DNA from: Candidatus Zambryskibacteria bacterium RIFOXYC1_FULL_39_10
GTDB lineage: Bacteria > Patescibacteriota > Minisyncoccia > Phycocordibacterales > WO2-35-19
Assembly: GCA_001824275.1 (NCBI GenBank)
Contig: MHWW01000011.1
Coordinates: 1-34,748 of the forward strand
Length of the DNA: 34,748 nt
Direction of reading: 5' to 3'
The notes under the pieces are model-generated. The model searched no databases and had not been told where the DNA came from. It saw only the letters and a list, made by a program, of their open reading frames with translations. Shown here piece by piece: positions 3,609-25,696 of this stretch. The translations under genes and the position numbers were made by a program. Numbering within the stretch: position 1 is the stretch's first letter; each line of letters opens with the position of its first letter.

Positions 3609-3682
3609 ATAGGGAAATAATAACACAAAAGGAGAAAATTTGGTGCTTGCACCGCGAAGCTCCCGAAAATGCAAAAGCGGAG

Positions 3683-3756
3683 TGGTGCGGCCAGGGAGAA
3701 TCGAACTCCCATCTCATCCTTGGCAAGGACGTGTCATACCATTAAACTATGGCCGC
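3683..3756 (-). tRNA. tRNA-Gly(GCC), CCA encoded
   Basis: Acceptor GCGGCCA/TGGCCGC, anticodon loop TTGCCAA, 3' ACCA. Confidence 0.93.
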
Positions 3757-7315: not shown

Positions 7316-7341
7316 ATAAGTGAGAACAAATTCTTTCTACT

Positions 7342-7370
7342 AGATGCTAACTACTTGCTACTAACTACTA
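7342..7370 (-). repeat. Stop-codon-associated AGTAGCAAGTAGTTAGCATCT repeat, copy A
   Basis: Sense strand after the HU gene: TAGTAGTTAGTAGCAAGTAGTTAGCATCT. Confidence 0.75.
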
Positions 7371-12793: not shown

Positions 12794-13672
12794 ATGACAA
12801 ACATTTTGAAAAAAAGTTTAGGGCAAAATTTTTTGAAAGATAAAGGCATTTTGAAAAAAATTGCTGATTTTGCACAGATTGAAAAAGAAGACACTGTGGT
12901 AGAGGTGGGCCCAGGGGAGGGAACACTGACCGAGCTGCTTCTTGAGAGAGCAAAAAAGGTAATAGCGGTAGAAAAAGATGATAGAATGGTGGAGTTTTTG
13001 ACCCGCCCGCCTCGCATACGCGAGAGCGTTGCGGGCGGGAAGAAAAATTTTATAGATAATAAGCTAGAGGTAATTGCTGGAGACATTTTAAATATTGACC
13101 TAAAAATATTTCCCAAAAACTATATCCTTGTTGGCAACATCCCATATTACATAACTGGCGCTTTGTTTAAAAAAACTTTGGAGTCTAAAAATCCTCCAAA
13201 ATCCTTAACTTTTGTTGTTCAAAAAGAAGTAGCGGAGAGGATTATGGGCTCCCACTTCGCTAAAGCTTCGCGGGACAAGAAAGAAAGTATTTTGAGTATT
13301 TCAATAAAAGTTTATGGCACACCTGAATTTGGTGGGGTGATAAAAGCTGGCAGTTTTAATCCCAAACCAAAAGTTGATTCAGCTATTCTATCGGTGAGAA
13401 ATATAAGTAAAGTGAGGTTTGAGAACGTTCAAGAACAAGATTTTTTTGAAATTTTAAAAGCGGGTTTTGCACACAAAAGAAAGCTGCTTATAAAAAACCT
13501 TATTTCTAGCCCTAGAAACACACCTAGGGCTACCCTGTGTAATTTAGAGACGATACTTAGGATTTTTAAGAAATGTGGAATTTCAGAGAAAGCTCGGGCT
13601 GAAGATTTGAAAGTTGAAGATTGGTTCGCTATGACCAGAGAATTGTTAATCAGTAGTGAATTTTTGCATTAA
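12794..13672 (+). CDS. rsmA: 16S rRNA (adenine1518-N6/1519-N6)-dimethyltransferase
   Basis: KKSLGQNFLKDKGILKKI, VVEVGPGEGTLTELL, LVGNIPYYITGAL, VQKEVAERI, PKPKVDSAIL; contains in-frame palindromic insert. Confidence 0.95.
   Translation: MTNILKKSLGQNFLKDKGILKKIADFAQIEKEDTVVEVGPGEGTLTELLLERAKKVIAVEKDDRMVEFLTRPPRIRESVAGGKKNFIDNKLEVIAGDILNIDLKIFPKNYILVGNIPYYITGALFKKTLESKNPPKSLTFVVQKEVAERIMGSHFAKASRDKKESILSISIKVYGTPEFGGVIKAGSFNPKPKVDSAILSVRNISKVRFENVQEQDFFEILKAGFAHKRKLLIKNLISSPRNTPRATLCNLETILRIFKKCGISEKARAEDLKVEDWFAMTRELLISSEFLH
13002..13039. repeat. In-frame palindromic element, copy 2 (CCCGCCCGC-CTCGC-ATAC-GCGAG-AGCGTT-GCGGGCGGG)
   Basis: Same outer and inner arms as 566-601. Confidence 0.9.
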
Positions 13673-17897: not shown

Positions 17898-18431
17898 ATG
17901 GATTACAAAGACACAATAAAAGAAAGATTGAATCTTTTATCTTCTGAATTGAAGAGTTTTGTGTTGAACGAAAATTGGAGAAAAGATGCAGAAAATACAG
18001 GCAAGAAATATAATTTAAATGAAGAAAAATACGCCTCATTAGAAAATGAAATATTTTTTGTTTTGCTATGTTTTGAACCAAAGAGTGATTTTGTTGAAAA
18101 TATTAAAAGAGAATTAGAAATTGATTCAAATATGGCTGGATGGATTGCCGAAGATGTAAATAAAAATATTTTTAGTCAAGTAGAAAAAGAGATTGACCAA
18201 ATGTGGGCAAGCGGAAGCACTGATGTGGAAAGGGAAACAGAGACAAGCGAAGAAAAAAACACCAACAACATTGGGCAATCGTTTGAGGAGATTATATTGA
18301 ATCAAGCGAGGGCGATGCAACCCGCCCGCGAAGCCATTCCACCTGAGAATTTGCCTATAGAAAATAGTGAGCCTAGAGCCATTCATAATTATATAAAAAA
18401 CAATGACCCCTACAGAGAGCCGGTGGAATGA
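17898..18431 (+). CDS. Hypothetical cytosolic protein in the T4SS-like cluster
   Basis: ORF in operon spacing with neighbours; no recognisable family. Confidence 0.65.
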   Translation: MDYKDTIKERLNLLSSELKSFVLNENWRKDAENTGKKYNLNEEKYASLENEIFFVLLCFEPKSDFVENIKRELEIDSNMAGWIAEDVNKNIFSQVEKEIDQMWASGSTDVERETETSEEKNTNNIGQSFEEIILNQARAMQPAREAIPPENLPIENSEPRAIHNYIKNNDPYREPVE

Positions 18432-18865
18432 TGTATTAGGGGAAATGTATTATGTATTATGGAAGAAACAAAAAAGATAGAATCGTTTTATGATTTGAAT
18501 GCGTGGAAGGAAAGCCATAAATTAGCAATTATGATATATAAAATTACCAAACAATTTCCAAGGGATGAAATTTTCGGATTAACTTCTCAGATAAGACGAG
18601 CCACAGTCTCTATATCATCAAATATCGCAGAGGGTTTTAGTAGAAACTCACACAAAGAAAAATTAAATTTCTACTCGATAGCACTTGGTTCTCTCACTGA
18701 AACACAGAATCAGCTTTTAATTTCGAGAGATGTTAGTTATATTGGTAGTAATATTTTCAAAAATATCTGGGATCAGACGATTATTGTAAGCAAACTCTGT
18801 AACGGATTGATCAAGAAAATGAGATCTTTTAACCATAATACATAATACTTACCCCATAATTCATT
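18430..18865. mobile_element. Candidate IVS-like element: S23-type ORF bracketed by inverted repeats
   Basis: GTATTATGTATTATGG (18447-18462) and CCATAATACATAATAC (18833-18848) perfect 16-bp IR; imperfect extension through AGGGG/CCCC. Confidence 0.6.
18459..18845 (+). CDS. Four-helix-bundle protein (23S rRNA intervening-sequence protein / S23 family)
   Basis: FYDLNAWKESHKLAIMIYKITKQFPRDEIFGLTSQIRRATVSISSNIAEGFSRNSHKEKLNFYSIALGSLTETQNQLL. Confidence 0.93.
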   Translation: MEETKKIESFYDLNAWKESHKLAIMIYKITKQFPRDEIFGLTSQIRRATVSISSNIAEGFSRNSHKEKLNFYSIALGSLTETQNQLLISRDVSYIGSNIFKNIWDQTIIVSKLCNGLIKKMRSFNHNT

Positions 18866-19320: not shown

Positions 19321-19941
19321 ATGAAAAATGCGACGCAAGAATTTGTGCCAATAGATGATGTGCGAGATGGCATCGTTATATTAAAAGATGGGAGTATGCG
19401 AGGCATCCTCATGGCTTCTTCTATAAACTTTGCCTTAAAATCAGATGATGAGAGGCAGGCGATACTTTTACAGTTTCAAGATTTTTTAAATTCTTTAGAT
19501 TTTTCTATTCAAATATTGGCTCAATCTAGACGACTCGATATCAGGCCTTATATTGCCTTGCTCGAAGGGCGATACAAAGAGCAAACAAACGACTTGATGA
19601 AAATCCAAATTGAACAATATATATCCTTTATTAAGGGTTTTACCGAATCTACCAATATTATGACCAAAAATTTCTTTGTCGTTATCCCTTATGATTCAGC
19701 TATCATATCATCCAAAAGCAGTTTGCCATTTGGTTTGGGCGGTAAAGAAAAAACAAAAGAATCAAAAGAGGAGGATTTTGAAGAAAAGAAAAACCAATTG
19801 GAACAAAGAATGGGGGTGGTAGAGCAGGGGCTCGTGCGGTGCGGCGTCCGAGTAGCAAAATTGGGGACTGACGAGGTGGTCGAGTTGTTTTATAAAATAT
19901 TTAATCCAGGAGAATCGGAAAAACCCATTAAGATACAGTAG
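19321..19941 (+). CDS. TraC/VirB4 N-terminal-domain-like protein
   Basis: FVPIDDVRDGIVILKDGSMRGILMASSINFALKSDDERQAILLQFQDFLNSLDFSIQILAQSRRLDIRPY. Confidence 0.75.
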   Translation: MKNATQEFVPIDDVRDGIVILKDGSMRGILMASSINFALKSDDERQAILLQFQDFLNSLDFSIQILAQSRRLDIRPYIALLEGRYKEQTNDLMKIQIEQYISFIKGFTESTNIMTKNFFVVIPYDSAIISSKSSLPFGLGGKEKTKESKEEDFEEKKNQLEQRMGVVEQGLVRCGVRVAKLGTDEVVELFYKIFNPGESEKPIKIQ

Positions 19942-19957
19942 TTAGTAGTTAGCATTG
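19937..19957 (+). repeat. Stop-codon-associated repeat, copy D
   Basis: AGTAGTTAGTAGTTAGCATTG overlapping the TAG stop of the TraC-like gene. Confidence 0.65.
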
Positions 19958-20036
19958 AGTAGTTAGGAACAAAATGAAAATAAAAAAAATAAAAAACCTT
20001 ACTACTTACTACTTATTCCTTACTACTATTTAAAAT

Positions 20037-25546: not shown

Positions 25547-25696
25547 CCTCATCCCGACTGGATAAATCCAGTCTGCCCTCCCCCTAGAAGCAGGGGAAGG
25601 GCTGCATTTCTCCCCTCTCCTGCATCTAGGAGAGGGTCGTTCGCCGTAAGGCGAACGGGGTGAGGTTTTGAAGGAGCGAAGTATTTAGTGAGGTTA
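25544..25696. repeat. Composite palindromic element spanning both convergent stop codons
   Basis: Outer TAACCTCA (25544) / TGAGGTTA (ending 25696); inner hairpins including CCCTCTCCT...AGGAGAGGG and CGTTCGCC-GTAA-GGCGAACG. Confidence 0.85.

Follow-up and report, generated by a model that had tools for sequence, protein, structure and literature searches.

The window analysed here is the first 34,748 bases of contig C11 (67,476 bp), part of a 744-kb, AT-rich assembly of 25 contigs. It contains one short palindrome in two unrelated housekeeping genes, xth and rsmA, where it is read in frame with the host gene. What this sequence is, how it entered the two genes, and whether its DNA or its peptide has been conserved are the questions raised by the locus. 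The evidence presented below indicates that the 36/38-nt sequence is very probably a non-autonomous mobile palindrome of the Rickettsia-palindromic-element or intragenic-REP kind, present in Patescibacteria. The features concerned are as follows.

440 to 1297, + strand: xth, exonuclease III / AP endonuclease, host gene (Pfam PF03372, E 1.5e-30; PDB 5cfe, E 3.5e-71)
566 to 601, + strand: 36-nt palindrome copy in xth, read PARLASESVAGG (exact match; exactly these 12 residues are missing in six relatives)
12794 to 13672, + strand: rsmA, 16S rRNA adenine dimethyltransferase, host gene (Pfam PF00398, E 1.7e-43; PDB RsmA 6ifs, E 5e-39)
13002 to 13039, + strand: 38-nt palindrome copy in rsmA, read (a)CC... 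= TRPPRIRESVAGG (exact match; not in the rsmA of relatives)

The palindrome and its copies

The 36-nt copy in xth is CCCGCCCGCCTCGC-AA-GCGAGAGCGTTGCGGGCGGG and the 38-nt copy in rsmA is CCCGCCCGCCTCGC-ATAC-GCGAGAGCGTTGCGGGCGGG, with both matching exactly, and the sole difference between the two forms is the loop, in which ATAC replaces AA. The sequence is an imperfect palindrome with an outer stem of 9 bp (CCCGCCCGC/GCGGGCGGG) followed by a short inner stem, and the two stems are set apart by AGCGTT, which is present on one side only. The two-arm pattern had no matches in 100 dinucleotide shuffles of the window. In xth, the element is read (D)PARLASESVAGG, and in rsmA, it is read TRPPRIRESVAGG. 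The preliminary description of this DNA had reported identical arms with loops ATAC and AA at these positions, a right half read in the same frame (ESVAGG) in both proteins, and a left half read in differing frames; the coordinates, letters, and translations were all exact. The rsmA sequence had also been called a second copy, which is correct, but the pair in the window is not the full set. The whole genome contains 8 copies, comprising 7 perfect ones (4 of 36 nt and 3 of 38 nt) and a degenerate 36-nt copy on contig C23. Seven of the eight are located inside ORFs, namely, those of xth, rsmA, DNA polymerase III alpha (dnaE), RNase R, a NifS-type cysteine desulfurase, a TraD/TraG-like ATPase, and an unnamed ORF, and one is intergenic.

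When a public genome collection was scanned for exact matches to the 20-nt half arm, 12 further stretches were retrieved, mostly from Patescibacteria of different groups (Zambryskibacteria, Liptonbacteria, Beckwithbacteria, and Levyibacteriota). The half arm was also found in one Desulfobacterales and one deltaproteobacterial metagenome-assembled genome (MAG), which may reflect mis-binning. Both the other Patescibacteria and these two MAGs contain the 36-mer in identical form. It was present in 3 of the 392 genomes sampled from the class and in 4 of 60 relatives, with few copies (1 to 8) per genome. Hosts elsewhere and in relatives include polA, gyrB, tsaD, clpB, a MiaB-like radical-SAM enzyme gene, a D-Ala-D-Ala carboxypeptidase-like gene, and a FemAB-like gene, and a related 36-mer is hosted by an ImpB/MucB-family DNA polymerase. 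Related elements having the same outer stem with a different interior also exist. The host genes are unrelated to one another, and the nucleotide identity of the copies extends to synonymous sites. All of the genomes are MAGs or drafts, read in part, and coding status was assigned from open frames and HMM matches. A phage or plasmid origin was rejected, since the half arm had no matches in viral_contigs and the 36-mer had none in plasmids or phages. Genes of DNA synthesis and repair recur among the hosts (xth, dnaE, polA, gyrB, and a DinB-type polymerase), an apparent echo of intragenic REPs (PMC3733652).

Several non-coding occurrences were also recorded. Three copies of the family occupy the place of the D-loop in isolated 5' halves of tRNAs (L047, ~3638-3720; L050, ~1570-1650; L108, ~1470-1560), which adjoin intact tRNAs (L047 and L108) or a GIY-YIG gene (L050). 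A functional tRNA hairpin was rejected for these copies, which sit in 5' halves; ARAGORN and Rfam make no call on the interrupted genes. Two non-coding copies are directly upstream of small GIY-YIG nuclease genes (PF01541; L050, 1341-1628; L106, 1297-1665). A 39-mer, CCCGCCCGCAGGAGGGG..., was rejected as a family member; it has the termini in common but is a longer, different intergenic repeat. The 39-nt palindrome CCCGCCCGCAGGAGGGGTCTGGGGAGGAATGCGGGCGGG (L094, L095, L096, and others) is a piece of a longer intergenic repeat that is widespread across the phylum and often occurs as two inverted copies ~2.1 kb apart with ordinary genes between them.

Insertion sites, reading frame, and probable frame rescue

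In six relatives, four of them of the same genus, the residues that flank the xth element are directly joined, and the insertion is exactly 36 nt. Empty sites in congeners lack exactly 12 residues in xth, 12 in nifS, and 13 in RNase R, which indicates that the element is inserted DNA. No target-site duplication, the mark of MITEs of the DDE-transposase type, was present at these three sites. In nifS, a 36-nt element occupies the identical place in this genome and in genome G006 with differing interiors (PARLASESVAGG versus PARHASQGDAGG), and it is missing in seven other members of the genus and family. Most relatives also have no element in RNase R, but in G007 the exact position is occupied by a different palindrome, CCCACTTCGCAGAAGCTTCGCGGG. 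Different palindromes thus enter at one and the same site, which parallels published observations on RPE-4, -6, and -7 of Rickettsia (PMC3767692) and on recB of two Xanthomonas species, where different REPs share about one site (PMC3733652). Judged by flanks, 12 of 23 copies follow the target preference R^GA(A). Solvent exposure, a criterion for Rickettsia elements, was considered through alignments: the xth insertion is at or beside a 12-residue gap in the alignment to solved exonuclease III structures (5cfe), and the rsmA insertion falls within a poorly aligned, gap-containing stretch relative to solved RsmA (6ifs).

These data bear on the proposal that nucleotide rather than protein sequence is what the xth and rsmA segments share. 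The preliminary description had named as counterevidence an absence of copies elsewhere, with both segments aligning to ancestral protein loops; instead, copies occur elsewhere and the sites are empty in relatives. The proposal thus stands in the sense of an inserted repeat. Conservation of a DNA or RNA structure after insertion is not supported, and the diverged copies do not preserve the hairpin. Three diverged coding copies were available, all with substitutions, and two have uncompensated changes in the outer stem. In the C23 copy, outer-stem positions 3 and 9 are both changed synonymously, which leaves a wobble at one of them and a mismatch at the other; in the L044 copy, an uncompensated change in the stem is accompanied by changes in the interior; and the L043 copy has a single change outside the outer stem. 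Within these small numbers, there is no sign of selection on the hairpin after insertion.

The reading frame of the element is under strong constraint. All 14 readable coding 36-mers, at 13 distinct sites, have a single orientation, start at codon position 1, and read PAR...AGG (the PARLASESVAGG type). This fixed reading is not forced by stop codons because the 36-mer has none in any of its six frames, as is often the case by chance for a GC-rich 36-mer. Target preference as the sole cause was also rejected as insufficient: among RGAA sites in coding DNA on either strand, 36.5% are in the sense orientation and phase 0, compared with the 14 of 14 observed, and the probability of finding 13 of 13 sites in one frame is near 2e-6 even when this bias is allowed for. 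Selection after insertion would be the natural reading of the fixed frame: the PARLASESVAGG peptide is neutral, composed of small residues, and Cys-free, whereas most of the other five readings are strongly basic, more hydrophobic, or Cys-containing. In a test of length that took in the family and its same-stem relatives and left out the 39-mer intergenic repeat, lengths divisible by 3 were found in 16 coding and 6 non-coding copies and other lengths in 2 and 11, respectively (Fisher p = 0.0016). The 2 coding exceptions are both rescued 38-mers, described below. This distribution argues that insertion is blind to frame and that the survivors have been filtered.

The 38-nt copies show how the differing left-half frame arose. 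The rsmA copy is 2 nt longer and came in at a different codon phase, and this alone makes its left half read differently. The changed frame is thus a by-product of the 38-nt length, and the suggested tolerance of either frame was not borne out, with the coding 36-mers invariant and both coding 38-mers exiting via ESVAGG. The RNase R sequence is GAC A-(38-mer)-GA GAC T AGA AAA; without the 38-mer, it becomes GAC AGA GAC TAG (Asp Arg Asp stop; DRD-stop), and relatives have Asp Arg Asp Arg Lys Lys (DRDRKK). Likewise, rsmA without the 38-mer becomes TTG AAA GAA AAA TTT TAT AGA TAA, read (F)LKEKFYR-stop, and relatives have L K(G/D/E)KF or near variants with several more codons after. A model in which the 38-mer enters after an A and one extra base (T) is added just downstream was compared in both genes with a plain 39-nt insertion. 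In RNase R, 12 to 15 of 18 flank positions matched those of relatives under the former and 7 to 12 of 18 under the latter; in rsmA, the values were 8 to 11 and 7 to 8 of 12. The 38-plus-1 model was the better one against each relative compared. The stretch concerned in rsmA is the following.

13040 to 13052, + strand: rsmA stretch AAGAAAAATTTTA with the putative compensating extra T (relatives AAA-TTT/TTC; codon-level comparison, in which the 38-plus-1 model fits better)

In addition, rsmA has a net gain of only 9 residues because ~12 nt was lost near the insertion, and the gene did not reach its present state in one clean step. The comparisons strongly indicate that both coding 38-mers went in out of frame and that one extra base downstream then rescued each gene, although the flanks are AT-rich and of low complexity. 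Judged from these frames, which are open only with the 38-mer in place, the element must be translated with its host gene rather than skipped.

Other palindromes of the genus and a candidate mobilizing enzyme

The element is not the only palindrome within xth and rsmA, where three more were found.

819 to 836, + strand: perfect palindrome in xth, ATTCGCCAGCTGGCGAAT, surrounding the lineage-specific residues SPAG
13250 to 13275, + strand: second palindrome family in rsmA, TCCCACTTCGCTAAAGCTTCGCGGGA, read SHFAKASRDK; the same sequence is in frame in nifS of this genome
13505 to 13532, + strand: third rsmA palindrome, TCTAGCCCTAGAAACACACCTAGGGCTA, a hairpin within a lineage-specific insertion

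Relatives bear different inserts at the rsmA loop of 13250 to 13275. The rsmA genes of G001 to G005 (L060, L061, L063, L064, and L066) contain differing in-frame palindromes, so that nearly every species of the genus has its own, and the loop before KESILSIS and the C-terminal region form a hotspot of hairpin insertion. In an indel survey of G000 against G003, a hairpin score of >= 8 was reached in 7 of 74 insertions versus 14 of 740 control windows, an enrichment that is real but modest, the score being crude. Intergenic-type palindromes of 25 to 28 nt, such as CCCCTCACCTTGCGAAGGTGAGGGG, occur at 1587-1614 and 25609-25636 of the window and in L013 to L030, and they are found in many versions, in which a change in one arm goes with a change in the other. 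Short, low-complexity repeats of the CTACTAGATGCTAACTACTTGCTACT type are present in inverted orientation at 7337-7369 and 19937-19966 of the window. A gene for a 23S rRNA intervening-sequence (IVS) protein (PF05635, E 3.5e-36; ORF 18459-18845) is situated between ORFs, with 32-nt inverted repeats on either side (18431-18462 and 18833-18864) that are 84% complementary; the whole (18431-18864) looks as if an IVS-type cassette had moved out of rRNA.

Genes of the Y1_Tnp family (PF01797) number 5 in this genome, and there is at least 1 in every other genus member sampled and in 42 of 60 relatives. Many of those encoding ~220 to 250 residues, the size of RAYTs, have flanking palindromes. The palindrome TGTCAAGGTTGAACCTTGACA beside the G003 RAYT on contig C1 is in frame in three other G003 genes, including rsmA (VSRFNLDT), and this repeat also flanks a RAYT of G004 and sits in the G004 rsmA. 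Similarly, TGTCAAAGGCGCCCTTTGACA, beside the G003 RAYT on C2, is in frame in two genes, including rsmA. For these sister palindromes, RAYT-like genes and apparent coding insertions are linked directly in sequence. No Y1 transposase or RAYT was found beside CCCGCCCGC copies, and none of the RAYTs of 11 genomes is flanked by the CCCGCCCGC palindrome. In this genome, two Y1 transposases of IS200 size are preceded by a hairpin whose outer stem, CCCGCCC...GGGCGGG, is that of the element. The E. coli TnpA-REP cuts a CT dinucleotide (PMC8266576), and CT is among the C^Y sequences to which the R^G junction of the element corresponds on the opposite strand; this is a lead only. Because such genes are present here and are associated with other in-frame palindromes of the genus, the enzyme mobilizing the CCCGCCCGC family is probably an HUH/Y1 transposase that acts on a single-stranded hairpin.

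Explanation and comparison with known elements

In the account that we consider very probable, the palindrome would insert as DNA with a preference for R^GA(A), leaving no visible target-site duplication and taking no account of reading frame, all of which the empty sites and flank counts show or strongly indicate. The enzyme involved would probably be of the HUH/Y1 type, working on the hairpin in single-stranded form. The element would be transcribed and translated with its host gene, adding 12 to 13 residues in an indel-tolerant place, and the survivors would be frame-keeping copies read as the neutral, linker-like PARLASESVAGG. The 38-nt variant appears to have broken the frame in rsmA and RNase R, each apparently rescued by one extra base just downstream. 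Weighing against this account are the absence of a Y1 transposase beside CCCGCCCGC copies, the low copy number, the unclean history of rsmA, the AT-rich flanks, and its basis in MAG sequences.

It is unlikely that the element is what is left of an IS200-like insertion sequence end and not a REP-like repeat. The hairpin upstream of the two IS200-size transposases shares the outer stem, and its local alignment to the element is matched by shuffles at just 0.6 to 0.8%. However, this likeness is limited to the outer stem, which drives the alignment, and the 36-mer-containing genomes G006, G008, and G012 show RAYT-size matches only, with none of IS200 size. It is more improbable that selection acted on the peptide itself, as a functional 12-residue module spread as protein with the palindrome being secondary. 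The invariant orientation and frame of the coding 36-mers would fit such a module, as would two other interiors that encode the similar PARHASQG(D/E)AGG. Identical DNA is nevertheless found in intergenic regions and tRNA remnants, the left half of the 38-mer encodes another peptide, and the hosts are unrelated genes whose copies are identical even at synonymous sites.

We give very little credence to palindromes being produced locally by template switching at replication forks, without a mobile family. Many different palindromes do occur at the same loops within the genus, but identical 36-mers in unrelated genes and distant genomes cannot be local products, and the palindromes that flank RAYTs recur in genes. 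Least credible of all is removal of the element from RNA or its skipping by the ribosome, as with an intron or a byp-like bypass, to give a protein without the element. The element is hairpin-forming, GC-rich, and found in essential genes, and bypass elements of similar size are known from fungal mitochondria and phage T4. However, removing either coding 38-mer leads to stops within a few codons, and the single stop-free frame kept by all coding 36-mers would not be needed if they were skipped. Splicing and bypass were therefore rejected, the frames of rsmA and RNase R needing the element.

With the mobile palindrome as the preferred explanation, a broader reading may be offered, which we regard as possible rather than probable. 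In Patescibacteria, REP-like palindromes moved by Y1/HUH enzymes may be a routine source of new protein loops, with several families re-entering the same core-gene loops. Those that succeed, the CCCGCCCGC 36-mer among them, may have been shaped so that their commonest reading is a harmless linker. If true, this would let selfish DNA occupy a nearly all-coding genome. Selfish palindromes in working genes have been seen mainly as a peculiarity of Rickettsia, plus scattered intragenic REPs, and no report of coding palindromes in Patescibacteria was found in open-access papers. The same habit is seen here in another reduced-genome group. The element involved is very short, its frame rule can be tested, frameshifts have apparently been rescued, and for sister palindromes there is a transposase family that probably moves them. 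Two questions are thereby made testable: what mobilizes coding palindromes, and whether the loops of streamlined bacteria evolve through them. For annotation, the stretches PARLASESVAGG, SHFAKASRDK, and VSRLNLDT should be regarded as inserted repeats and not as conserved motifs.

The closest known systems are the Rickettsia palindromic elements RPE-1 to RPE-7 (Ogata et al. 2000, 2002; PMC3767692; reviewed in PMC10969869). Like these, the element appears to be palindromic selfish DNA that is in frame in unrelated housekeeping genes and translated; several families exist, different families occur at one site of orthologues, and dnaE is a host. It also occurs in several copies at unrelated loci (8 copies in unrelated genes) and lies in ORFs without breaking the frame while being absent from orthologues. 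In contrast to RPEs, it is 36 to 38 nt rather than about 100 to 150 nt (PMC3767692), a separation made by length. It also belongs to another phylum and has one fixed 12-residue reading, and in two copies an additional base beyond the element has apparently restored the frame.

Intragenic REPs with GTAG/CGTC are likewise short (20 to 40 bp), GC-rich, imperfect palindromes in genes, with different REPs near the same site of orthologues and recurring DNA synthesis and repair hosts (PMC3733652). The element agrees with the description of REPs as GC-rich palindromes of 20 to 50 nt, often with a bulge (PMC8266576). However, instead of a GTAG/CGTC tetranucleotide at one end, it has just the R^GA(A) preference (12 of 23 copies), and instead of a high copy number with mainly intergenic locations, 7 of 8 copies are in ORFs. 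A linked RAYT flanked by the same palindrome is a feature of other palindromes of the genus and not of CCCGCCCGC. As with RAYT/TnpA-REP enzymes and their cognate REPs (PMC2817692, PMC8266576), Y1 HUH genes with flanking palindromes are present in the genome and genus, cognate palindromes of the genus are also in frame in genes, and the C^Y equivalent of R^G includes the CT of TnpA-REP; the difference is that no examined RAYT has the CCCGCCCGC palindrome.

The byp elements of mitochondrial translational bypassing are also short GC-rich hairpin inserts in genes. The present element resembles them in this respect, but it is apparently needed in translation to keep the frame, and the frame does not stay open once it is removed, as the early stops in rsmA and RNase R indicate. 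The element thus behaves like an RPE and an intragenic REP, yet it lies outside both definitions.
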